This document shows positions 9,209-54,080 of a stretch of DNA of 64,000 nt, one piece after another. Source of the stretch: an uncultured archaeon (lineage in GTDB: Archaea; Thermoproteota; EX4484-205; JAAOZP01); NCBI GenBank assembly GCA_938045545.1, contig CALIBN010000016.1, positions 1-64,000 of the forward strand, in the 5' to 3' direction. A program made the position numbers and the translations under genes. The first letter of the stretch is position 1. Each line of letters starts with the position of its first letter. The notes under the pieces were generated by a model. That model was not told the origin of the DNA, ran no database searches, and saw only the letters and a list, made by a program, of their open reading frames with translations.

Positions 9209-10043
9209 ATGAGCGTTAGAAAGGCGCGAATCGGTTTCATAGGCTGCGGCAGCCACGCCTCATCCTCTCTCTATCCTGCCATTCACACTATTCCGCAGAT
9301 TGAGCTTGCCGCTGTTTGCGACTTGAAGGAGGAGCTTGCGAGGAGGAATGCTAGAAGCTTCGGAGCCCTGCGCTGGTATACTGATGTTAAGGAGATGCTT
9401 AGGAGGGAGGAGCTGGACGGCGCCATAATCGTCGGCCCTCCACAGATGCACTGCGAGCTCGGGAAGCTCTGCCTCGACGCCGGCCTACCGATCCTCGTTG
9501 AGAAGCCTTCCGCCGTTTCCCACAGGGAGGCTGTTGAGCTCGCGCAGCATGCTGAGGACGCTGGACTATGGGGTGCTGTAGCTTACATGAAGCGCTACGC
9601 CGTGTGCGGATGGTGAGGAAAATAGCTTTCAGCCAGGAGTTCGGGGTATTCACTGTCTTGAGGCAAGGTTTTCAAACGGCCCCTACCCGCGATCTGGGGC
9701 ATAGAGGACCCGGCTAAAGCATTCCTAATAGGGCAGGTTGTCCATATTTTCAACTTGGCCAGGTTCTTCTGCGGGGAGATGCGGGAGGTCTATGCTAAGC
9801 TCCACTGTCTTAACCCGAACATGTTTGCCTACACCATCGTCGGCGAGTTTGAGAGCAAAGTCCCATTCGTCATGAACCTGAACTCTCTGGAGGCTGGAGA
9901 CTGGAAGATAAGCGAGAGGTTCGCCCTCTCTGGAGACGGCTGCTGGCTTGAGGTTGAAGACATGCTTCGCCTAAACTACCGTCCCAGGAGCCTCCCCCTG
10001 CAGGAGTTTAAAGTAGGCGGTAGGACGCAGACCATAAGCTGGA
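9209..10043 (+). pseudogene. Gfo/Idh/MocA-family oxidoreductase, frameshifted and 3'-truncated
   Basis: 'RIGFIGCGSHASSSLYPAI...AAVCDLKEELARRNARSFGA...VEKP' N-terminus; C-terminal pieces in other frames up to ~10043. Confidence 0.75.
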
Positions 10044-10473
10044 GAAATCGGTGAGGATTATGTAAGGTTTTACCGCGAGGAGGACATTAAGGAAGTTGTA
10101 TCTAGGAAGACCGGAATACCTAAGGAGGAGCTCGAGGTCGTCCAAGGGTATGAGACATGGGAACCGGACTTCTACGTTTATCATGGAAAGGGGTTATTGG
10201 CGATAGTCGAGGTCAAGACCACGACCGTATCTGATAAATATCCGAAAGAATCTTGGAAGATGCCGTTAGGGACTTTATGTCACTTCAGACTACAAAGGTG
10301 CTGAACTCGGAATCTCCGTAATTATATACCTTAGGGACTTGGATAGGATAATCGAGACGGAATTTAAAGAGGGGGTTGAGCTCATCATGCGGGGCATCAC
10401 TAAGGCCGAGCTTGAGGAGAAGGAGGTCGAGGAGATTGTGGAGGAGATCATCAGAAGCCTCGGATGGCCTTGA
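10043..10473 (+). pseudogene. Locus A: 5'-truncated PD-(D/E)XK nuclease-like gene
   Basis: 'FYREEDIKEVVSRKTGIPKEELEVVQGYETWEPDFYVYHGKGLLAIVEVKTTTVSD' closely matches the locus C protein; frame disrupted around 10260. Confidence 0.75.
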
Positions 10474-10475
10474 GG

Positions 10476-11186
10476 CTAGGGCAGGTAAAGCTTCCAGCCT
10501 CTCTCCTTCTCCAATTTCTCAGCTTCGCCCTCTGAGAAGACCGCGTAGACTGTGTAATCGAGGTCGCTGATCGCATAGTATTGGTATCCAGCATCCTTAA
10601 TCAACTCGTTTATCTTCTTTATAGCTGGATCCATGTAAAGGTAATCTCTATTGCTATAGAACTCCATCAAATGCTCCTTTCCCCTAAACTCAAAGAATAC
10701 CTTAAAAATCCAACCCGCATAGGAACACCACTTTCCCAATGCCGCCTTCAACGCCGGGGGAGGCTCTTCGTCCCACTCCAACATCTCCTCCCCGATGTAC
10801 CTAGGGTTGAAAACCCCTCTAGATATCCTCGCGAGCTTCCTCAACAATATCTCACACATGTCCTTCTCTATGACCACCTCGACGTCCTCGACGAAGACTC
10901 TCTTAACGTCGAAGAAGGAAAGTTTCTTATCTACATCAAAATCGCTGGCCTTCATCCAATAATCCTCGTGCTCCTCGAGCGATTCCCTCAAGTATCGCCC
11001 GCGAGCCCCCCTCTCCTTTTTAGGCCACGTCTCAACAAACCAATCGACATCATAATCTGTTTCCCCGTTGAAAATCTTATCGAGTATCTCATCAGAAGTT
11101 AAATCGGAATAGCCCTTGAAGAAATCCATCCTCCTGAGGTACTCTATCGAATTCACGAATCGCTTCCTGAGCTCAGGGTTCATCAC
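10476..11186 (-). CDS. Locus A: 'SIEYLR' family protein of unknown function
   Basis: MMNPELRKRFVNSIEYLRRMDFFKGYSDLTSDEI...; paralogs at 36663-37346 and 48695-49454. Confidence 0.8.
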   Translation of the reverse strand: MMNPELRKRFVNSIEYLRRMDFFKGYSDLTSDEILDKIFNGETDYDVDWFVETWPKKERGARGRYLRESLEEHEDYWMKASDFDVDKKLSFFDVKRVFVEDVEVVIEKDMCEILLRKLARISRGVFNPRYIGEEMLEWDEEPPPALKAALGKWCSYAGWIFKVFFEFRGKEHLMEFYSNRDYLYMDPAIKKINELIKDAGYQYYAISDLDYTVYAVFSEGEAEKLEKERGWKLYLP

Positions 11187-11351
11187 TAATAATAATGCGG
11201 CCGTAACCTTAAAAGCATAACGCCCATAAAGATTCAGGATACTAAAGGAACCCTCTGAAGGAAATTAACAGTGCGTTGATAGACATCGCCCGCTACTAAA
11301 GCCAACTTATGACAGAAAGTATATAAAAGCAGGGTAAGATGCTTTTATCGA

Positions 11352-11436
11352 GCCGGGGTGGCAGAGTGGTTAATGCGCTGGCCTTGAGAGCCAGTGACCC
11401 GTGCGGGTCGCAAGGGTTCAATTCCCTTCCCCGGCG
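11352..11436 (+). tRNA. tRNA-Ser(UGA), class II
   Basis: Acceptor GCCGGGG/CCCCGGC, anticodon loop CTTGAGA, long variable arm. Confidence 0.9.
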
Positions 11437-11769
11437 CGTCATTTTTCACGGTTGGAAATCATCCGGCTTTTGAGAATCTTTTGCAATTTTCATCCTTTAA
11501 TCTCCTTATTGCCTCTTTAATGCGTTTTCGCGCGCAAATCAGAATCGGGAGAATGGATGAAAAATGCCGAGGAGCGTATAAGACTCCTCAAGATAGACGG
11601 GAAGTCTTAGGGATTCTTGGGTGTATCTTGGTGTGGTTGTTCAAGAGAATATTCGCGCACTCTGCCACCCCGGCAGACAGCCTATTTTTCCTTTTTGAAT
11701 TAGATAAGCTTTTTCACCGGGTAACGTTTAAAAGCCGTTTTAAAAGCTGTATCTTCAACGTGGTATCTG

Positions 11770-32636: not shown

Positions 32637-32723
32637 TGGACCGGGAGGGACTCGAACCCTCGACCCTTCGAGGTCACCCATTCCGAGTGCAAGTCGGACA
32701 TTCTACCACTGAACTACCGGCCC
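32637..32723 (-). tRNA. tRNA-Ala(UGC) with ~13-nt insertion near the variable loop
   Basis: Acceptor GGGCCGG/CCGGTCC gives the G3-U70 identity pair; anticodon arm TCCGA-CTTGCAC-TCGGA. Confidence 0.85.
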
Positions 32724-33194
32724 TGAGGCTTCTACTTCCCTCAAGGATATATAAATGCTTCCCATGAGGAAGGGAAAGTTTAAAACGGGACTTCAACGTT
32801 TAATTTTTTGCATGATCTCTCAGGATTAGTATACATAGCATCAAGTAAACCACTCATGCGCCGGGTGTATCTTAAAAAGGGCTAAGCCAGTATACGAGCA
32901 GATAAGTGACGAGATAAGGAAGACCTAGGAGAAGCAAGTAGAATGGTTCATCAGTAGCGGTGCCCTGATGCTGAGGGTCGTAGTTGGTCTGCTCAAGACC
33001 AGCCTTCCGCTCAAATGGAGCATTATCTACCTTTTCAAAGAAGCCCTTAGAAAGATTCTTAAAAAGAAACTGGGCCTCAGGGATATTGCCAACTTCTGCT
33101 ATGAACTGAGGCATGAGAACTGATCGTGGTATGAGATTGACGCATGTTTTTCCATGCTTTTTTAAAACTTTTTAAAGAAAAGATGGGGGGTTTG

Positions 33195-33434
33195 ATGAGA
33201 ATGCGTATTGCGCACGGCCCTTTGAAGTGTGGGAAGTCATGCCGCAGGTGCGATTACCTTAAGCTCGGGTTATGCGCTGGATGCCACCTTCCCAAGAGGA
33301 ACCTCTGCTTGGCTTACCAGTGCATCGTAGGAAGGTTAGAATCATGGGAATAACCCTCAGATGTAGGGCCTGCCCGCTTGCCCCGGCTTGCGTAAAGTCC
33401 GGCAGGTTCACCCCGCGCGCGCGATAGCGAGAAC
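33195..33434 (+). pseudogene. Locus B: Cys-rich zinc-binding-like protein, frameshifted
   Basis: 'MRMRIAHGPLKCGKSCRRCDYLKLGLCAGCHLPKRNLCLAYQCIVG' continuing in another frame 'GITLRCRACPLAPACVKSGRF'; near-identical to locus C 50442..50879. Confidence 0.7.
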
Positions 33435-34573
33435 GTGACGAAGGTTGAGGAGAAAGGTGTGCACAGCTTCCTCGAGTACGATGGTCAAATACTGCTCTCA
33501 ACCATAATGCCGGACAAGCTCCTAACCGAGGAAACCTTCAACTTCACCGTAAGCTTTGTGAAGAAAGGGGGCTTCGACGGAGTAGTCGGGTGGGACATGC
33601 CCGTTTACGCTGACTATCCCAAGGCATTAAACCTATCCAATTTGGTTAAGGCTACGCTCCTGACGATGAGGTATGTGGAGGAGGGGATACCAACAATACC
33701 ATTGTTGAAAGGCGGAGACTCTTCTGAGATAGCGCTTCACGCCGAGTGGTTGGAGAAAATAGGCTTCAAGAGGATTGGGCTCCACGCCACTGAGTATATT
33801 CTAGCTAGAACTCGTGGCGGCATTGGGATTTATGGAGACTTAGCTAAAGTCGCCAACAACCTCTACTCACTGGTGCTGGTGAAAATATACGAGATTGGAG
33901 CGAAGCCACTGATAATGGGAGCCTTAAGCCCCAGGGGCCTCCGCGACTACCACGAGTCCGTGGAGAGATCTCTCTAGCGGGAATGTCTTGGCTAATAGAG
34001 GCTAGGAAGTGGCGTGCTTACGTGGGCACATCCTCTGGCCTGGGCATCGTAGACCTAGGGAGGGGCATCATGGAGTGTAAGTGCAAGGCATGTTTAGGCA
34101 AGTCTCCGAGTCAGGTCGTTGAAAACCAGGATGACATAGCGTGGCATAACTTGGTCCTGCTCAAGGAGTATGCGGAGAAGGGTAAGCTTGATGAAACGCC
34201 TGTTTACAACATGATACTGGGGAAGGATGATACCTTGGCGGTTGTGGGGGATCTGCACATAGGCATCTCCCAATCCCTTTGGCTGCCGTGTTTGAGGATG
34301 CTTAGGAAAATCCACCCAACCCACCTGGTTCTCCTAGGGGACGTGTTCGACTTCATAAGGGGGAAGCCGGAAGCATCGCAAGTCATTAGCTTCCTCAATC
34401 TCCTGAAAAACCTAAACGTCCGCATAGGATACGTATCAGGATGCTCGGATTCATACGCCTCCAGGTTTCTAGAGGCTCTGGCGAGGCTCGCATTTACGGA
34501 GGGGCCGAGGGAACCCCAGCTCTACAATCCACAACTAACGCTGGTGGAGGCAATGAGGATTCCTCCCTGCTGA
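33435..34573 (+). pseudogene. Locus B: TGT/DpdA-like protein followed in frame by a metallophosphoesterase-like segment; one frameshift near 33965
   Basis: 'GGFDGVVGWDMPVYADYPKALNLSNLVKATL...LHAEWLEKIGFKRIGLHATEYILAR', then zinc signature 'CKCKACLGKSPSQVVENQDDIAWHNL', then 'AVVGDLHIGIS...LVLLGDVFDF'. Confidence 0.55.
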
Positions 34574-35610
34574 TGATGACGGGAGACCTGTCGGAGGAGG
34601 AGAAGCAAGAAATAGAGGAACATATGAAGGAGGAGCGTGAGGAGCATGAGGTAGTAACGTCCAATAGGTTCGTCCTTCTGCAAGGACCTGGGGAAGAAGA
34701 GGAGGAAAAGGAGGAAGTAACTCCTCTAACGCTCGACTGGGAGATAAGGGAGATTGAGGCACTGGCCGAGGGGTATCCTCAGATGATCGAGAAGCTGGAG
34801 AATCTGGAAGAGGTATTGAACGAGGAGGAGAAGAGACAGGAGGAACTACTTAGGGAGGAGTTGTTCGAAAGTATTGCGAGGAAGTTGAGGAGGAGGCGGA
34901 ATCAGAAACTCCTCTTGAAAGACTGTTTAAAGAAGCTGAGGAACTGGCGGGAATCAAAGAGGTTGGGAAGCAGGTTGAAAAACCTCTTGAAAAGCCTGTG
35001 GAATACGAGAAACCCGAAGAGACGCATTATGAAGAGCCCGTAGAAGAGCTCGATATCCTAAAGGAAGAATTCGAAAAGCTAATGGGAGGAGAAGAACCTG
35101 TTGAAGAAATCGCCGAGGGCTTCGAAGAGGCTTGTGGAGAAGAGCTGGAGGAGAAAGTCGAGCTGATTGAGGAAGTTGAGGAAGAAGCCGGTGAGTTAAT
35201 TGAAGAGGTTGTTGAGGAGGAGCTGGAGGAAAGGGCTGAGCTAGTTGAGGAGGCTAGAGAAGAAGTTGAGGAAGTGGTTGAGGAGGTAGCCGAGGAAGCT
35301 GGAGAATTTGTTGAGGAAACTGCTGAGAAAGTTGTTGAGGAGGTTGGGAGAGAGGAAGAAGCCGAAGAGAAAGAGGAGTTGCTTGAAGAAGAAATTGGAG
35401 AGACTGCCGAAGAAGTCGTTGAGGAAGTCGAGGAAGTCGGTGAGTTAATTGAAGAGATTGAAAAAGAACCTGAGGAAGGGGCTAAAGAAGAGATTACAGA
35501 ATACGAGAAACCTAAGGAAGAGTTAGAAGGACACCGGAGGCAGTGGCTGCAGGAGAAGGGGAGGGGCCTGAGAAGGAAGAGGTCGAGAAGATTGTTGAAG
35601 AAAAACTGAG
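34574..35610 (+). CDS. Locus B: extremely Glu-rich, probably coiled-coil segment spread over two overlapping frames
   Basis: 'EEVEEEAGELIEEVVEEELEERAELVEEAREEVEEVVEEVAEEAGEFVEETAEKVV' etc.; frame change near 35000-35040. Confidence 0.5.
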
Positions 35611-35774
35611 GAAGTAATCGTTGATAGGTTTGAAAGAACGATATTCAAGTCCGGCCATATAGAGCGTCACGGGGAGTTTGAAAAAGGCCTTTACTTGATC
35701 AGAGTAAAGACAAAAGATGGAAAAATCTTCGAGTGGTCAACTAGGAAGGATAAAAAAGACAATGCCCTTAACAC

Positions 35775-36650
35775 TTGAGTTCCTGGGGAATTCTTAAAGG
35801 AACTAGTTGGAAAGAATGTGGAGATTACTATCGTCAAATACAATTACTTACTGCACTTTCAAAAGGTTCGAACTTCTACTTCTGTCCAAGAGAGGGGCTT
35901 ATTGTAGAGGGAAAGAAGATAGAATTAGAAAAGGTCGAGCCACTGAGCTGGAGTGAGAGGCATGGAGCATCTATGATGGTCAAGCTGGTGAAGAAAAGCA
36001 TGCAGGGCGCCGAAATATACCTCGCATTCTTTGAGGACGGAGAAGTTAGTATAGTCCTCAGCAAAGAATCTTCTATATATGGAACTATGTTTAGGGTTAC
36101 ATTAAGAGTTGAGGGGGGCTTCTTGATAATAAAATACAAGGATCAAGAAGTGTGGATCCCGATTATTAAGCTTTGGCAAGGCTCATGGGAGCTTAGCGAC
36201 GAAGAAATTAGGAGAATTAAAGAAGTTACAGATAATGCAACAAGACTAGGAAATGCTGGGAGAGATAAGGTTGAGGCCGTCATACGAGCTGGAGGGATTC
36301 CGGAAATAGAAAACGCGAAAGAAATATACAAGGAAGTCTACATCAGAAACGGGCACGGAAGAATTATAGGAAAGGTAGACTTGGTAGTTGAAAAAGAGAA
36401 CGAGCGCTTAACAGTCTTAGAAGTTAAGACGACCACGATTTCTGATTACCTTGAGGATAATCTTAAGGATGGTATAGAGGATTTGGAGGAAAAATATAAG
36501 TTGCTGATCAATAAGTACAGCCTCGATTTGAGAAAGATCGGCTTAGGCGTGAAGAAGGCGGAAGATATTGAAGCCTACATAAGCTTCTCGGTCTATTTCG
36601 ACATAAAGAACAAGAAGGCAAATGCAATATGGAGCGCATTATCGCCTTAA
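35775..36650 (+). CDS. Locus B: PD-(D/E)XK nuclease-like protein
   Basis: 'GKVDLVVEKENERLTVLEVKTTTISDYLEDNLKDGIEDLEEKY'. Confidence 0.65.
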   Translation: MSSWGILKGTSWKECGDYYRQIQLLTALSKGSNFYFCPREGLIVEGKKIELEKVEPLSWSERHGASMMVKLVKKSMQGAEIYLAFFEDGEVSIVLSKESSIYGTMFRVTLRVEGGFLIIKYKDQEVWIPIIKLWQGSWELSDEEIRRIKEVTDNATRLGNAGRDKVEAVIRAGGIPEIENAKEIYKEVYIRNGHGRIIGKVDLVVEKENERLTVLEVKTTTISDYLEDNLKDGIEDLEEKYKLLINKYSLDLRKIGLGVKKAEDIEAYISFSVYFDIKNKKANAIWSALSP

Positions 36651-36662
36651 AATAGATAGGAA

Positions 36663-37346
36663 TTAAACGAGATACTCGAAGCTCCAGCCCCTTTCCTTCT
36701 CCAGCTTCTCAGCTTCTTCCTTCGTCAGCACTACTACAATTATACGCATTATATCCCTACACTTGACCTGATAATCCTGGTACTCAGTGTCCTCAATGAG
36801 CTCGTTCAATTCTCTGAGACCCATGTCCTGGATGTAGTCGTGCAACAAGGCGATCTCAATGCTATGCCTCCTGCCTCTAAAGTCGAAGCTGACTTCCTGT
36901 ATTAGCCACTTGGATGCCGAGGGCGTTAACCACCTTGAGCTTATATTCGTAGGCTGAAAAACTCCCCTCGATATCCTTGCAAGCCTTTCCAAGATAGCCC
37001 TTCCCATCTCCTCGTCCAGCATCGTCTCCGCATCTTCCTCTAAGATCCTCTTGGTGTCGAAGACTATCAGTGTCCCGTCTATTTCAGTATCACTCTTTTC
37101 CATCCAATCCTTCTCATATTTCATGAGGGACTCTCTGAGAAGAATTCCATGAGACGCCCCATATATCGACTTCTCCTTCTCATCCCACCATCTATGTGAA
37201 TAGTTTATCTCTCCGTTAAAAATCTTCTTCAATATTTCCTCAGAGGATAGGTCAGAATAGTCCTGGAAGAAGCTCATCTTCCTAAGATATTCAATCGAAT
37301 TTACAAATCGTTTCCTGAGCTCAGGATCTACCATTCTCATTAACAA
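36663..37346 (-). CDS. Locus B: 'SIEYLR' family protein
   Basis: MVDPELRKRFVNSIEYLRKMSFFQDYSDLSSEEILKKIFNGE... Confidence 0.8.
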   Translation of the reverse strand: MLMRMVDPELRKRFVNSIEYLRKMSFFQDYSDLSSEEILKKIFNGEINYSHRWWDEKEKSIYGASHGILLRESLMKYEKDWMEKSDTEIDGTLIVFDTKRILEEDAETMLDEEMGRAILERLARISRGVFQPTNISSRWLTPSASKWLIQEVSFDFRGRRHSIEIALLHDYIQDMGLRELNELIEDTEYQDYQVKCRDIMRIIVVVLTKEEAEKLEKERGWSFEYLV

Positions 37347-37493: not shown

Positions 37494-37594
37494 GGCCGCC
37501 GCCGCGATTTGAACGCGGAATCAGTGGCTCCACAGGCCACCGCGTTAACCTGGTTTAGCGGTGGTTTTTAGCACGCACATACGCCACAGCGGCC
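37494..37594 (-). tRNA. tRNA-His(GUG) with putative ~23-nt intron in the D-arm region
   Basis: Acceptor GCCGCTG/CGGCGGC with G-1 and C73, anticodon arm GTGGC-CTGTGGA-GCCAC. Confidence 0.8.
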
Positions 37595-37935
37595 ACGGTA
37601 GATTAAACGTTGAAGCCCCGTTTTAAACTTTCTCCTCCTTGAGAAGCTGAAGAAAGAGAGGTTGGAAGTTCGAATCTCGGCAGCGGCCCTTTAACAACCA
37701 ATATTTGGAAACAAGCCTCCTGATGCGAGTAATGTGGATTAGAAAATAATTAATTCCAATATTTACTGAGATTAAGGAATAAATAATACTGTAGACTAAC
37801 ACTCCTATTCCGCTTATTTCTAAATCTTCCCCTCGAACCACCACTAGCTTCAAACATGCTCGACCCAGCCTGCCCACCTTCTAAAGGGTTTTCGGCGAAA
37901 ACGTTTTAAGCCCCTTTTCCAAAGAAAACTGTTGA

Positions 37936-38027
37936 GCCTCGGTAACTCAGCCTGGTAGAGTGGCAGCCTTGTAAGCGGAAAAGGCTGAGAAAGCTGTTAG
38001 GCGAGGGTTCGAATCCCTCCCGAGGCT
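37936..38027 (+). tRNA. tRNA-Thr(UGU) with ~18-nt anticodon-loop intron
   Basis: GCCTCGG...CCGAGGC; 'CAGCCTTGTAA[gcggaaaaggctgagaaa]GCTG'. Confidence 0.88.
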
Positions 38028-38890
38028 TCCTTCAAAAATATGGATCATTAAGGTTGTTGTTGAGCCCAGCTGGACGTGTCTGCTTAAATCTTGGAAGTGT
38101 TGAGGAGCAGGTGTGGGTTTGATTGCGTAAGCTGCCCCTATTTTAAGAAACCTTGTATCGGCTGTGTGATTGAGACTCGCTTGGTGGATAAATGCGTCAG
38201 GGACACTTCCTACACTGGGATAACGCATCCCAAGGGCTCCTGCAGGCTTAGGCCGTATTGACCGATTGGAAGCAGGGATAGGCCTCCCACGATGCTGATT
38301 TCATCTCCTAGGAAGAAAGTAAATGACAAGGATAAGGATCCCTAGGTTTGTGCTTGAGATTGATATCACTGGTCAAAGGTCCTTGATACGGGGACATGGT
38401 TTCCAAGTATCGACAGTTTTCCTGCCCCTATGGCAACTGTTTGCAAATGAATTTAGCGCACGCTGATGACGAGGAAAAGAGAACATATAGACATAGCCTG
38501 TCATTTGTGAAAGAAGCTACGAAAAAGGGAGCAAATTCCCATTCAGAAATTTAAGAATCAACAGAAGGTAAAGCCTCACTCGAAGGAGAGAAAACTCGCA
38601 ATAACCTCGGCCACCTCAGTATTCTGTGAGCTAGAATCAACGCTCTTTAATAAGGTAATTATGTGGGCAGGCAATTGCGACCTCCAATCTCTCTTGGACT
38701 ACATTCACTTCCTTGCCAATGGATTAGTTGAACATAAGATTGCCACCCGCATAATAGGATACGATTTGGAAAACAACACTGAGAAATTAGCGATCGAAGA
38801 TTTGTATACAGAGGAAAACAGAGTAAAAGAGGTTTTCCTATGGCTGGCTTAATGCGGATGCTTGACGCATTACGACGTTCAGCTTAAACG

Positions 38891-38983
38891 AGCCCCAGGT
38901 GGGCTTCGAACCCACGCCCTCCTCCATTGACGCTTTTCCAGCATTACCAAGGAGGCGCTCTAACCAGGCTGAGCTACTGGGGC
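38891..38983 (-). tRNA. tRNA-Thr(GGU) with ~18-nt anticodon-loop intron
   Basis: RC GCCCCAG...CTGGGGC; 'CCTCCTTGGTAA[tgctggaaaagcgtcaat]GGAGG'. Confidence 0.85.
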
Positions 38984-48694: not shown

Positions 48695-49454
48695 ATGAGC
48701 CTCATGAGCATTAATAATGGGATGGTAAATCCCGAGCTCAGGAAACTTTTCGTCGATTCAATAGAGTACCTTAGAAAAATGGATTTCTTCAAGGATTACT
48801 CAAATCTATCCTCGGAGGAGATTTTCGACAAGATCCTTAGTGGGGAAATAGACTATGGGGACCAGTGGTTCATCGAGGAGTGGCCCGAGGAGGAGCGGAG
48901 GAAATTCAGTACTCAAGGGCAAATCTTGAGGGAGCTACTTAAAGGCGCGAAGAACACTGGATGAAGAAAAGCATTTACGAAGTGGATTTGGAGGTGGCGT
49001 CTTTCGATACCAAGAGGATCTTTATAGAGGATCCTAAGACGGTCGTAAGAAAGGGGATATGTAAGATGTTGCACATGAAGCTCGCGAGGATCTCCAGGGG
49101 AGCTTTCAATTCCAGGTACATTAAGGAGGAGTTGATAGAATGGGAGAAACCCCCTCCGGTGTTGAGGGCGGCGTTGGGGAAATGGTGTTCCCCTACGGTG
49201 GCTTTATCTTCAAGGTATGCTTTGAGTTCGGAGGGAAGGAGCATCTGGCCGAGTTCTACAATAACTGGAAATACCTTTACATGGTCCCGCTCATAGAGAG
49301 GATAAATGAGCTGATCAAGGATACCGGATATCAATATTACGGGTTGCATAATGAGGACATAATCTTAGTTGTCCTAAGGGAAGACGAGGCCGAGAAGCTT
49401 AAAAAGGAGAGGGGTTGGGCACTTTACTTGCCTCAAGTTAAGGCTCATGCTTAG
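48695..49454 (+). pseudogene. Locus C: 'SIEYLR' family protein with two frameshifts
   Basis: MVNPELRKLFVDSIEYLRKMDFFKDYSNLSSEEIFDKI...; continues 'EEHWMKKSIYEVDLEV' and 'YGGFIFKVCFEFGGKEHLAEF' in other frames. Confidence 0.8.
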
Positions 49455-50445
49455 GTTTCTCCACAATGTTCTCTACAGTCTCCTCAATATCGTCTAAGGT
49501 GCATTTAACACCCTCTTTAAACTCAGTCTCGATAATTTTATTCAGGTTCTCAAGGCATATAGCTACCGGAATGCCAAACGCGGCTTCCCATAAATGCTTC
49601 CACTTATCCTCGGTGAAATAATTATTCAGATCTTTCTTTGCTCTGCTTAAGCTACGTTGATAATAATCGGATACGATCGTGGTCTTGACCTCAACTATCG
49701 CTACTCACTTCCCCTTATGGTAAACGTAGAAGTCCGGTCCCTCTGTCTCATATCCCTGGACGACCTTGAGCTCTTCCTTAGGTATTCCGGTCTTCCTAGA
49801 TACTACCTCCTTAACGTCTTCCTCTCGGTAAAATCTTGCATAATCCCAGCCGATTTCCCCAACCGGTCCTTTAACCCTTGGATCGTCTATCGAAAACCCT
49901 TTGTTAATTAGGCCCCCTACATCTTCAACCCTCACCACCAGAACCTTCTCGGGGTCCTCCAGGAATACCTCGTAGCGAGATGCGGCTTCCCCCACCCCCA
50001 TATAGTATTCTATCGTGAGCTTCTTTCTATCCACCTCGTATTTTGTGATTTTAATCCGCCTATATTTGCTGATCATTATCCTTGGAATGTATTCCTTGGA
50101 CTTCCTGTAGACCAGCTTGATTAGGTGCTCCTTACCTTTGTAATCCTTAATCGCGAAGGTGACGGCTGGTCCATGTTCCGATCTGTCGTAATGCGGGTTC
50201 CTCTCCAACGTCAATTTGCAAACCTCCTTCCCATCCACGACCAGCTTATATTCGCCTGAGCTGAATGCGATGTCGAAGGACGCATTCGCTTCCTTAAACA
50301 CGGTTTTAACGAACTCATGGGTGGTGATTTTGACGATCTTTATCTCAACCTCCTCACCACTCCGACCTATGTTGCTTGGAAGGTCGAACTCAAATGTCGG
50401 CCCATATTTCTTGTAAAATGTCCTTCTCTTGACCTCGATTTTCAC
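49438..50445 (-). pseudogene. Locus C: PD-(D/E)XK nuclease-like protein with one internal in-frame TGA (49705-49707)
   Basis: 'EGPDFYVYHKGK*VAIVEVKTTIVSDYYQRSLSRAKKDLNNYF...IIETEFKEGV'. Confidence 0.75.
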
Positions 50446-50879
50446 TCAACATGATTCCCTCCAAGGTACTGCTTGAGTTGTTCGCTGGGTATTCTAATCC
50501 TCAAGTTATCTTTATTCCGCCTAAAAACGCATCTCACCTTAAGGCCCTCCGGGTAATTAGCGAGCTCGCTGGGCTCCTCCCGTGCTGGCTCTCCGCCCTC
50601 CCGCGCGCGCAAGACTCCAGCATCAGGCTTAGCTTGAGATATGCACCCGCCCTTGGGGGGGACGAACCTGCCCGACTTAACGCAGGCCGAGGCGAGCTGG
50701 CAGGCCCTGCATCTAAGAGTTAGCCCCACGATTTTCACCTTTCCTACGATACACTGGTAAACCAGGCATAAATTCCTCCTCGATGAGTGGCATCCAGTGC
50801 ATAATCCGAGCCTAAGGTAATCGCATTTGCGACAAGGCTTTCCGCACTTGAGGGGCCCGTGCGCGACTTGCATTCTCAT
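50442..50879 (-). CDS. Locus C: Cys-rich zinc-binding-like protein; 4-nt ATGA overlap with the nuclease-like gene
   Basis: MRMQVAHGPLKCGKPCRKCDYLRLGLCTGCHSSRRNLCLVYQCIVGKVKIVGLTLRCRACQLASACVKSGRFVPPKGGC. Confidence 0.8.
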   Translation of the reverse strand: MRMQVAHGPLKCGKPCRKCDYLRLGLCTGCHSSRRNLCLVYQCIVGKVKIVGLTLRCRACQLASACVKSGRFVPPKGGCISQAKPDAGVLRAREGGEPAREEPSELANYPEGLKVRCVFRRNKDNLRIRIPSEQLKQYLGGNHVE

Positions 50880-51103
50880 GAACTCATCACCTTTTCTTTA
50901 AAAGTTTTAAAAAGCATGGGAAAATACACTAGGTATCGTCGGAAAGGGATTCGCCTCATCTAGGGTCTTTATAGAGTCGCCCAGCCTTCGTGGTTTCAGG
51001 TCGCCATTCTTACCACTGAGAGGGTCTCGTCGTACCTCAGGTATTTTTTTATAAACGAGGAGTAAAAGCTTTATTTGGCCTCTGCATCAACCTTACTTTA
51101 GAC

Positions 51104-51230
51104 GTCGGGGTAGCCAAACCTGGTTAAGGCGCGAGATGCGCGATGTACGCGAGCCTGCTAAGCTCGTGGCCCATGAGAGTTCCATGATGGAACCACGAGG
51201 GCCGTGCGGGTTCAAATCCCGCCCCCGACG
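51104..51230 (+). tRNA. tRNA-Ser(GCU), ~40 nt longer than a typical class II tRNA
   Basis: Acceptor GTCGGGG/CCCCGAC, anticodon arm CGAGC-CTGCTAA-GCTCG; extra nt before the anticodon arm and in the variable arm. Confidence 0.85.
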
Positions 51231-51461
51231 TTTTCCCCTTACAGTTATTGTTTCAGAAAAACCTGGTTGTTATCTCTTCCGATGATCTGTTTTACAGGTT
51301 TCTGGAACTTAGGCCGTTCTTCACGCGCGTTAATCGAGGGCCCTGCTTAATCTTATGGCTGGATGGTTTAACCTTGTTTTTTTGTCAGTATTCTCCCGTT
51401 GATTAAGCTGAAAAAAGTCGTTTTAATGTTTTAATACCTGTGACTCTGGTTTAAGCTCCGC

Positions 51462-54080
51462 ATGGAGAAAAGGAAGGAAAGGAAGGTTGTTAAGAGAGAC
51501 GGCAGGGTCGTGGATTTCGACCCTAACAGGATTAGGAACGCTATTGCAAAGGCAATGGCGAGTGTGAAACAGTATGATGAGAAGACTTTGGAGAAGGTTG
51601 TTAACTACGTGTTAAACGTTTTAAACGGGAAGTATGAGGCCGGGGAGACTCCGCATGTCGAGGATATTCAGGATGTGGTTGAGCTTGCCCTTATGAAGTT
51701 TGATCTTTACGATGTTGCTAAAGCCTATATTCTTTACAGGAAGGAGAGGGAGAGGGTAAGGGAGGAGAAGAAGGCTCTTCTTCAGAAAAGCTTTGTGGAC
51801 GAGGTTGATAAGGAGTTTTCTGTTAACGCGATCAGGCTGCTTGTGAACCGCTACCTTCTTAAAGATGAGAACGGTAAGCTCGTCGAGTCGCCTAAACAGT
51901 TGTTTCAAAGAGTAGCCTTAACCGTTGTGATACCGGATATTCTTCACGACCCGAGGGTGTTCTCTAAGGATGGAGGATTAACGGTGTTTCCGAGAGAGGA
52001 TTTCAACGCCAGCCACTATGCGAATAAGCTTGGCCTAGGAAAGAGCGGCAACGAGTATGCTGTCACCTGGAACGAGTATCATTTGGAACGCATGAAGGCT
52101 CTTTACGACGAGCTTAATTCTCAAGGCAGGATGAAGGTTTCTTGGAGCGGTTTTCTCAGAATGCTTCTTTCAGGCGAGTTTGAAAACTATTACGAGAATT
52201 TCAGGGCCTATTATGATCTTATGGTTTCTAAGAAGTTCATGCCAAATTCACCGACGCTGTTTAACGCTGGGACTAGGCTTGGCCAGCTTTCAGCTTGCTT
52301 CGTGTTGGATGTTGAGGACAATATCGAGTCTATTATGAATGCTGCAACCCAGGCGGCCATCATCTTCAAATCCGGTGGAGGCATTGGGATAAACTATTCT
52401 AAGCTGAGGCCCGCGGGCGACATTGTCTCAAGCACCTCAGGAGTGGCGAGTGGCCCCGTTTCATTCATGAGGATAATAGACACCGTCACAGACGTGGTTA
52501 AACAGGGAGGTAGGAGAAGGGGGGCGAACATGGGGATTCTCGAGGTTAACCATCCGGATATAGAGATGTTTATAACGGCCAAGTCTGAACGGGGGAGGCT
52601 TGAAAACTTCAACATATCTGTCCTCATAAATGATGATTTCTGGGACTACTTGGAGAAGGATGTACCATATCCGCTTGCAAACCCAAGGGATAGGAGGGTT
52701 TGGAAGACTATTCGTGCCAGAGACGTTTTCTGGAAGATTGCGGAGATGGCTTGGAGAACAGGCGACCCGGGTGTCCTCTTCTTGGAAAACATCAACAGGA
52801 GAAACATAATGGCGAAAAATAAGGGTCCAATAAAGTCCACTAACCCCTGCGGAGAGGAACCCTTGTATCCCTATGAATCCTGCAACCTGGGTTCGATAAA
52901 CCTGTATGCGTTCGTGAAAAGAAGTAGAGAAGAAGCTGTCTTCGACTGGGAGGAGTTTAGCCGAGTAGTTGGGATCGCCCTCAGGTTTCTAGACAACGTG
53001 ATAGATGTGAACAAGCTTCCTTTAAACGAGATAGAGCGTGCGACTAAGCTTACGAGGAAGGTTGGCCTAGGTGTCATGGGCTTGGCCGACTTACTTTTCG
53101 CCCTGAGAATACCTTACAACAGCGAGGAGGGCTTCAGGCTGATGGGCAGAATAGCGGAACACTTGACTTTCTACGCTATGAAGGAGTCTTGCATGCTTTC
53201 TAAGGAGCGCGGCGCCTTCCCGCTGTATGCTGAATCATCTTACCCTGACGGCGAGATGCCGATTGAAGGCTACTATCATAAGGACTGGCAGACTCTCCCC
53301 TGGAGCGACCTGCAGCAGGAGATAACAAGGTTTGGAATAAGGAATGCGGAGGTGACCACCATCGCTCCAACCGGCTCTATTTCCATGCTGGTTGACGTTT
53401 CCTCTGGGATAGAGCCCCAGTTTGCCCTAATATATGAGAAGAGGGTTAGCGTAGGAACATTCTATTACGTGGATGTTGAGTTTGAGAAAGCACTTAGGGA
53501 AAATGGTCTTTACGACGAGAAGACGCTTAAGCTGATTTCAGACAACGGCGGTTCGCTCGTGGGCCTCGACTTACCCGAGGAGCTACGCCGCGTGTTCCTA
53601 ACCGCATACGATATACCCTGGTGGGACCATGTGAGGGCTCAGGCAGAGTTCACGAAATGGATTTGCGCCGCGGTCAGTAAAACCATAAACATGCCGAACT
53701 GGGTTACTGTAGAGGATGTTCAGAAGGCTTTCACTCTGGCACGTGCAATGAGAGTAAAGGGAGTCACCATTTACCGTGACGGCTCCCTCCCGTATCAGGT
53801 CTTAGTCACACCTTCCTCGAAACTAGGAAAGTATGCGAAGATCGTGGACAACTCGACTATTGAAATCGCAAGGACCCTGGGAGTCGAAATAAAAGATTTC
53901 GGAGAAGAATCGGAAGGCAAGACATCAAAAACGGCAGCCGCCTCGGAGAAACCTGTTCTAATTCTTAACGAGAATAATAAGTCTGACCAATGTCCGAGCT
54001 GTGGCAGTAAAAGGCTCATCATGGAGGGCGGGTGCCTAACCTGCATCGACTGCGGTTGGAGCGTATGCCCCATTTCCTAG
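51462..54080 (+). CDS. nrdJ: Adenosylcobalamin-dependent (class II) ribonucleotide reductase
   Basis: N-terminal ATP-cone, 'NSPTLFNAGTRLGQLSACFVL', 'NPCGEEPLYPYESCNLGSINL', C-terminal zinc ribbon. Confidence 0.95.
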   Translation: MEKRKERKVVKRDGRVVDFDPNRIRNAIAKAMASVKQYDEKTLEKVVNYVLNVLNGKYEAGETPHVEDIQDVVELALMKFDLYDVAKAYILYRKERERVREEKKALLQKSFVDEVDKEFSVNAIRLLVNRYLLKDENGKLVESPKQLFQRVALTVVIPDILHDPRVFSKDGGLTVFPREDFNASHYANKLGLGKSGNEYAVTWNEYHLERMKALYDELNSQGRMKVSWSGFLRMLLSGEFENYYENFRAYYDLMVSKKFMPNSPTLFNAGTRLGQLSACFVLDVEDNIESIMNAATQAAIIFKSGGGIGINYSKLRPAGDIVSSTSGVASGPVSFMRIIDTVTDVVKQGGRRRGANMGILEVNHPDIEMFITAKSERGRLENFNISVLINDDFWDYLEKDVPYPLANPRDRRVWKTIRARDVFWKIAEMAWRTGDPGVLFLENINRRNIMAKNKGPIKSTNPCGEEPLYPYESCNLGSINLYAFVKRSREEAVFDWEEFSRVVGIALRFLDNVIDVNKLPLNEIERATKLTRKVGLGVMGLADLLFALRIPYNSEEGFRLMGRIAEHLTFYAMKESCMLSKERGAFPLYAESSYPDGEMPIEGYYHKDWQTLPWSDLQQEITRFGIRNAEVTTIAPTGSISMLVDVSSGIEPQFALIYEKRVSVGTFYYVDVEFEKALRENGLYDEKTLKLISDNGGSLVGLDLPEELRRVFLTAYDIPWWDHVRAQAEFTKWICAAVSKTINMPNWVTVEDVQKAFTLARAMRVKGVTIYRDGSLPYQVLVTPSSKLGKYAKIVDNSTIEIARTLGVEIKDFGEESEGKTSKTAAASEKPVLILNENNKSDQCPSCGSKRLIMEGGCLTCIDCGWSVCPIS

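Follow-up and report, generated by a model that had tools for sequence, protein, structure and literature searches.

Locus B of a Brockarchaeota contig is probably a decayed, integrase-less cassette of a family inserting at the 3' ends of tRNA genes

What kind of system is, or was, encoded at locus B, a run of plus-strand coding matter on a contig of an uncultured archaeon that ends against a convergent gene, SIEYLR? The contig (C16; CALIBN010000016.1) is part of a draft genome of 2.03 Mb, and its positions 1 to 64,000, the whole stretch of DNA that was analysed, are called the window. The first-pass annotation, made from the sequence alone, had read locus B as the largest copy of a module with five proteins (Cys-rich, tRNA-guanine transglycosylase (TGT)/DpdA-like with a zinc site, phosphoesterase, Glu-rich, and nuclease) and had proposed a system of nucleic-acid modification plus restriction or processing. 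Comparison with relatives gives another answer. Locus B is probably a decayed mobile cassette of Candidatus Brockarchaeota that carries no integrase, one of a family of cassettes from hot-spring archaea that insert at tRNA 3' ends. The relatives are Brockarchaeota metagenome-assembled genomes (MAGs); genomes are cited by G numbers and loci by L numbers.

The plus-strand coding matter extends from about 33147 to 36650 and is followed by the intact convergent SIEYLR gene on the minus strand (36663-37346), as the first-pass annotation had seen. Its five separate genes have to be given up, because intact versions found in genus mates consist of two fused genes, both open for example in L047, L048, L049, and L051, with the same neighbours recurring. 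Gene 1 encodes a single protein of about 635 residues that joins a Cys-rich region, a TGT-like barrel with a zinc site, and a metallophosphoesterase, and gene 2 a single protein of 720-850 residues with a short conserved MGQFS N-terminus, a Glu-rich region, and a C-terminal PD-(D/E)XK-type nuclease. Judged against these copies the region 33144-36650 represents two decayed genes. When the intact L047 proteins are mapped onto the window DNA, residues 8-331 of gene 1 fall into one frame and residues 318-532 into another, with frame shifts near 33350 and 33960, and the linker and the last approximately 110 residues are gone. Gene 2 starts at residue 66 of its L047 counterpart, the first approximately 65 residues being gone, and changes frame near 34911, between 35123 and 35614, and near 35865. 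Because the end of gene 1 is missing and gene 2 begins at residue 66, a deletion must have taken the end of the phosphoesterase together with the start of gene 2. A CxCxxC...H zinc site, the phosphoesterase motifs GDxH...GDxxD, a Glu-rich stretch, and the EVK nuclease motif are still present. The element itself reaches past 37346, to a tRNA-His copy and a displaced tRNA-His 3' end. The features of the locus are:

32637-32723, minus strand: tRNA-Ala(TGC), flank of the insertion site (ARAGORN/Rfam; Ala-His-Thr cluster in G005 L198)
33147-33427, plus strand: gene 1 fragment, Cys-rich putative zinc N-terminus, frame broken near 33350 (59% identity to L047 gene 1 from residue 8 onwards)
33426-33977, plus strand: gene 1 fragment, TGT-like barrel with Ser at the D95 position and Asp at the D130 position (alignment with TGTs and L047)
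33983-34573, plus strand: gene 1 fragment, zinc site CxCxxC...H and first part of the metallophosphoesterase (GDLHIG, GDVFDF, GCSD), remainder deleted (71% identity to L047 gene 1 residues 318-532; Metallophos_2 in intact copies)
34558-35609, plus strand: gene 2 fragment, Glu-rich, N-terminus (MGQFS...) deleted, frames broken (matches L047 gene 2 residues 66-252)
35608-36647, plus strand: gene 2 fragment, C-terminal PD-(D/E)XK-type (EVK) nuclease domain (64-67% identity to L047 gene 2 residues 400-741; PDDEXK_1 E 0.006, below cut-off)
36663-37346, minus strand: gene 3, SIEYLR, intact, 227 residues (73% identity to the L047 copy)
37494-37593, minus strand: tRNA-His(GTG), a hybrid of native 5' part, D-arm insert, and non-native 3' part from the T-arm on (3' end compared with native G005 tRNA-His)
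37667-37689, plus strand: displaced native tRNA-His 3' end, 23 nt, far boundary of the insertion (100% to G005 tRNA-His)
37935-38030, plus strand: tRNA-Thr(TGT) (tRNA prediction)

Cassettes of the kind present at locus B are called type 1, and two further types are built on the same plan. Gene 1 of type 2 encodes the same Cys-rich and TGT-like protein without the phosphoesterase (about 365 residues), gene 2 a protein of about 300 residues that starts with MGGG[ST]..QY.RRF and matches LAGLIDADG_3 (PF14528, E 1.6e-16; two motifs by eye), and gene 3 a protein of about 225 residues. The second genes of type 3 are LAGLIDADG-like (weak or by eye) and the third gene is different. No LAGLIDADG domain was matched in gene 2 of type 1. 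The third gene goes with the nuclease type across the cassette kinds.

That these are insertions is seen where one genome has a cassette at a tRNA locus and another genome, with both flanks syntenic, lacks it there. This was found at five tRNA loci, some of the unoccupied sites having short unaligned stretches that are perhaps remnants:

Ala(CGC): occupied in L062, empty in L159/L180
Arg(CCG): occupied in L131, empty in L195
Trp: occupied in L047, empty in L104/L160
Gly(TCC): occupied in L061/L129, empty in L162
Glu(CTC): occupied in L130, empty in L148

The cassettes of G004 and G005 at tRNA-Glu(CTC) have opposite orientation and come from different supported clades, and therefore represent two insertions at one tRNA. 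In addition, the tRNA 3' end is repeated exactly at the far edge of many cassettes, over 52 bp at Ala(CGC) (98%), 48 bp at Pro(CGG) (100%), and 27 bp at Glu(TTC) (100%), with further repeats at L171 (24 bp), Arg (38-40 bp, 82-92%), and the type 1 cassette at Trp (21 bp, 90%). A displaced-end repeat of at least 19/24 accompanies 8/25 tRNAs that have a cassette 3' of them and 0/63 unoccupied ones; at a threshold of at least 20/24 it is still present in 6/25 occupied tRNAs (Fisher p 3e-4; upstream control 0/88). The displaced ends lie at cassette length, 1.86-2.88 kb from the tRNA or 4.94 kb in the case of type 1, and the repeats mostly start at the T-loop (GGTTC). At Trp and His it is the distal copy that has the native sequence, not the one joined to the tRNA.

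The link to tRNA genes is also seen in the overall distribution of the cassettes. Among the 21 type 2 TGT-like matches 15 are located at most 2.03 kb from a tRNA, against an expectation of 6.6% that approximates positions as uniform (binomial p 8e-14), and their distances form three tight classes corresponding to the cassette edges. SIEYLR loci are found at most 320 nt from a tRNA in 9/41 cases (p 1e-7). Considering the 88 usable tRNAs (ARAGORN, introns allowed), a part of a cassette begins at most 400 nt from the 3' end of 25. The tRNAs used include Ala, Glu, Pro, Arg, Thr, Trp, Ile, Gly, and others, the isotypes of intron-bearing tRNAs being uncertain, and cassettes adjoin them in both orientations. 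Many tRNA genes of G000, G003, G004, and G005 are 90-130 nt long and probably contain introns. Taken together, it is very likely that the cassettes integrate at tRNA 3' ends.

How does locus B itself fit this pattern? In G005 the genes for tRNA-Ala(TGC), tRNA-His, and tRNA-Thr(TGT) lie within about 600 bp (L198), and in G003 (contig C77) the His and Ala tRNAs are adjacent with the same spacing as in G005, 121 bp apart. In the window this trio is separated by cassette B. The full tRNA-His stands on the minus strand beside SIEYLR, whereas the 23-nt native 3' end is on the plus strand, and the 3' part of the full copy from the T-arm on, non-native compared to G005, was probably supplied by the cassette. 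The order at locus B, tRNA, SIEYLR, nuclease, and gene 1, equals that of the Trp cassette of G003. As far as the gene order tells, locus B can be explained by an insertion at tRNA-His and a later joint inversion of tRNA and cassette. The tRNA-His of the window also contains an insert of about 22 nt in the D-arm, probably an intron, at an unusual place for one.

Concerning the way of insertion, the islands collected as Islander offer a close parallel, with a regenerated target and a displaced fragment (PMC4383910). Like these, the cassettes enter at the 3' part of the tRNA, the tRNA is regenerated, a displaced 3' fragment is left at the far end, and occupancy is polymorphic between relatives. 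Unlike these, they are only 2.8-5 kb long, have three genes, occur in both orientations and at many tRNAs, and contain no integrase: the intervals bounded by tRNA and displaced end hold only the three cassette genes. Casposons (PMC6563490) are archaeal as well and have direct repeats where they insert, but they encode a Cas1 integrase and a polymerase, neither of which is present in the cassettes. The integrase could, however, act in trans. A tyrosine recombinase encoded by a virus, a plasmid, or the host would then insert a non-autonomous cassette at tRNA 3' ends, and the TGT-like protein and the nuclease would be cargo, for example a module for defence or against competitors. Integrases leave this kind of trace, a displaced tRNA 3' end whose distal copy is the native one (Islander, PMC4383910), and four genomes have 1-5 matches each to the tyrosine recombinase family PF00589. 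Yet none of these matches is inside a bounded interval, G004 and G005 have just one each, and an integrase is normally restricted to one att sequence while the cassettes use many tRNAs in both orientations. We regard insertion in trans as possible, though less likely than not. A viral origin of the cassettes themselves was rejected: the alignment A1 had no match in IMG/VR and gene 1 of type 1 none in phage records. The type 2 TGT-like protein had no match in plasmid records.

If the cassettes are mobile, what is their TGT-like protein for? The TGT/DpdA-like fold with zinc site and the metallophosphoesterase, both proposed in the first-pass annotation, are well supported. Both cassette types have profiles that match those of true archaeal TGTs (hhalign 96%) as well as one another (100%, E 1e-39), and in a profile search of the PDB with type 2 the archaeosine TGT 1iq8 ranks first (E 2.7e-6). 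The AlphaFold model of the gene 1 fusion of an intact relative has a mean pLDDT of 72.8, with low confidence for the Cys-rich N-terminus, and retrieves 1iq8 with Foldseek (E 7.5e-9), followed further down by the bacterial TGT 4fsa, DpdA (7ui4), and QTRT2 (6fv5). Matches to the small subunit of DNA polymerase D and to Rv0805 are presumably caused by the phosphoesterase part, to which Metallophos_2 was matched in intact copies and whose motif III reads GC[SC]D in place of GNH[DE]. The predicted structure thus confirms the TGT fold.

The active site tells a different story. We take D95 to be the general Asp and D249 to be the nucleophile of TGTs, roles and numbering being assigned by analogy with the Pyrococcus enzyme. 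In an alignment of the family with three true TGTs, and considering for each position the members that cover it, D95 is replaced by Ser in every member and D249 by Ala, Ser, Thr, Gly, Val, or Cys in all, and the substrate Gln of the PIQGG motif has become an invariant Lys. The base-recognition Asp is kept, and so are the zinc ligands in most members. From these residues we are fairly confident that gene 1 does not perform the canonical exchange of guanine or a 7-deazaguanine. The cassette proteins also do not score above the cut-off of the archaeosine TGT (TgtA) models TIGR00432 and PF01702. Canonical TgtA, as defined by the same two models, was found in none of the eight genomes of the genus (G000-G007) but in all four genomes of sister genera, and incompleteness alone is an unlikely cause of its absence from eight genomes.

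The system of modification and restriction suggested in the first-pass annotation, in which the TGT-like protein would insert a deazapurine and the nuclease would cut unmodified DNA, has to be judged by these residues. The TGT fold, the zinc site, the conserved base-recognition Asp, the co-encoded nuclease, and the distant similarity to DpdA (7ui4) speak for it, and the 7-deazaguanine islands of the Dpd type indeed combine a TGT-superfamily protein having a CxCxxC...H zinc site with a nearby nuclease. Because both catalytic Asp are replaced in every member covered, however, there is no support for a 7-deazaguanine base exchange, and a base-exchange system of the Dpd type was rejected on this ground. 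Furthermore, matches to QueC (PF06508), which would indicate a supply of preQ0, were weak and generic pyrophosphatase-like in all genomes searched, with no strong match in any relative; no DpdB- or DpdC-like genes were recognised in the loci read, although a dedicated search for them was not made; and the insertion sites speak for a mobile element and not for a modification island. That the gene set differs from that of DpdA islands had been correctly stated in the first-pass annotation. We consider a modification system very improbable. Another parallel is QTRT2, a TGT subunit whose fold is thought to act without catalysis, but this is a subunit of a eukaryotic enzyme and has no nuclease, phosphoesterase, or mobility.

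The second protein is the variable part of the cassette. The EVK nuclease of the first-pass annotation is retained as a PD-(D/E)XK-type nuclease in type 1, weakly (PDDEXK_1 E 0.006), and LAGLIDADG-like proteins take its place in the other types. Free-standing LAGLIDADG homing endonuclease genes resemble the cassettes in the LAGLIDADG_3 match of type 2 and in the repeated decay of copies, but have no constant TGT-like partner, third gene, duplicated target end, or exchange for a PD-(D/E)XK nuclease. Distant proteins combining TGT and phosphoesterase are encoded in G246, G248, G392, G126, G292, and G274, which belong to other families of the Thermoproteota. Most of these loci have a neighbouring gene starting with MGQY, MGQL, or similar, some with LAGLIDADG-like, helix-turn-helix, or PD-(D/E)XK-like parts; only L211 has no neighbour of the MGQ type. 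Such a constant N-terminus ahead of differing nucleases may be a docking motif.

SIEYLR is predicted to be a protein of helices and sheets (AlphaFold, pLDDT 85.6). Since the model had no match in the PDB at E<=0.001, its role has to be judged from gene context. SIEYLR is constantly paired with the nuclease of the PD-(D/E)XK type, which suggests that it is an immunity or partner protein of this nuclease. Outside the cassettes, at other places in the genus, its gene is convergent to the end of genes for proteins of 1400-2250 residues (L063, L113, L116, and L117), whose last approximately 370-430 residues are 35-49% identical to the cassette nuclease. A Pfam search with these giant proteins gave no match; with their convergent SIEYLR they could form an archaeal polymorphic toxin-immunity system. 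The cassettes resemble such toxin/immunity pairs in their nuclease and its convergent SIEYLR but differ in that the nuclease is attached to a short MGQFS/Glu-rich protein that has no secretion part and that no giant protein is present.

In a further alternative the barrel would have a new catalytic site made up of its invariant Ser, Lys, Asp, and Glu, for example for the cleavage of nucleosides or tRNA, and the cassette would be a toxin-like or abortive-defence module that targets tRNA and resides beside the genes of its substrate. Invariant polar residues unlike those of TGTs, a phosphoesterase with the unusual GC[SC]D motif, a nuclease that is related to polymorphic-toxin-like proteins and paired with SIEYLR, and the tRNA neighbourhood are all in agreement with it. 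Taken alone it leaves the displaced tRNA ends and the empty sites unexplained, and we regard it as unlikely.

Over these alternatives we prefer a model of TGT-like targeting and nuclease cutting, which assigns roles to the subunits and a way of movement to the cassette. Gene 1, probably without exchanging bases, would be the subunit that recognises the tRNA or its gene. The product of gene 2, an exchangeable endonuclease of the LAGLIDADG or PD-(D/E)XK type, would use its conserved N-terminus (MGQ[YFL].. or MGGG[ST]..) to dock onto gene 1 and would cut the target DNA in the T-arm. The cassette would then be copied or recombined into the 3' end of the tRNA gene, comprising T-arm and acceptor stem, by means of the tRNA 3' part that it carries. 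This copy would rebuild the tRNA, and the original 3' end would be pushed to the far side. SIEYLR would serve as the immunity partner of the PD-(D/E)XK nuclease. At locus B the target would have been tRNA-His; later, cassette and tRNA would have been inverted together and the genes broken. Movement by the cassette's own nuclease is possible but doubtful. Equally tentative is the notion of a new class of elements, in which a non-catalytic or re-purposed protein of the TGT family guides interchangeable endonucleases to the T-arm and insertion proceeds free of an integrase, with the tRNA restored by the 3' end of the cassette.

Several observations weigh against this interpretation, in addition to the possible recombinase in trans. 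The type 3 cassettes and several of type 1 do not adjoin a tRNA, and one type 1 cassette (L048, 11142-12472) follows a signal recognition particle (SRP) RNA gene, about 320 nt from its 3' end, in place of a tRNA. A search for T-arm-like sequences around the type 1 and type 3 cassettes away from tRNAs yielded none, the two matches being tRNAs themselves, and a search for Rfam non-coding RNAs beside the remaining SIEYLR loci yielded none except the SRP RNA at L048. The cassettes at Gly(TCC) are on the 5' side of the tRNA, with a repeat that is not of tRNA origin. For 17 of the 25 occupied tRNAs no displaced end could be detected, perhaps because the insertions are old or decayed. The barrel, with its invariant Ser and Lys, may still be an enzyme, though one of a different activity. 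The PD-(D/E)XK assignment of gene 2 consists of a Pfam match below cut-off plus a motif, and all genomes compared are draft MAGs.

Locus B is, as had been noted, the largest of three copies in the window; A and C are remnants. In addition, a dead type 2 cassette (38100-38849) lies between two tRNA genes close to locus B, and its G004 orthologue between the same two tRNAs is intact. These features are:

10041-11189: copy A, nuclease remnant 10041-10389 (plus strand) and intact SIEYLR 10485-11189 (minus strand), beside tRNA-Ser(TGA) 11352-11437
38100-38451, plus strand: type 2 remnant, N-terminal part of the TGT-like gene (60-66% identity to L052 TGT2)
38469-38849, plus strand: type 2 remnant, gene 3 (comparison with relatives)
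38890-38983, minus strand: tRNA gene of uncertain isotype, tRNA-Thr(GGT) at the syntenic place in G005 (tRNA prediction)
48722-50927: copy C, broken SIEYLR 48722-49427 (plus strand), nuclease 49477-50457 (minus strand), and Cys-rich gene 1 fragment 50571-50927 (minus strand), with tRNA-Leu 51103-51231 at 176 nt

Genes similar to ribonucleotide reductases adjoin three cassette loci or lie at most a few kb away (window 51462-54080, L054 195-3536, and L077 5637-10820), which may be coincidence; one of them appears by eye to have intein-like inserts. A further observation concerns the Gly(TCC) type 2 cassette, which is shared across families with closely similar proteins (L139 in G008, another family of the order). 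Some cassettes are therefore old and stable.

A mobile cassette combining a TGT-like protein with a DNA-cutting enzyme was absent from the databases and literature searched, and the full-text open-access literature held no paper joining "tRNA-guanine transglycosylase" with LAGLIDADG, or Brockarchaeota with transglycosylase. Only integrases of the tyrosine family have been described as targeting tRNA genes (PMC4383910). If the proposed model is true, a family of tRNA-modification enzymes would have been turned into the targeting part of a mobile element, and tRNA genes would be invaded without a resident tyrosine recombinase. The absence of TgtA from the genus and its presence in the sister genera make a link to tRNA modification testable. 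Because the pair of TGT-like and MGQY-nuclease genes also occurs in several other families of the Thermoproteota, the question reaches beyond one genus.

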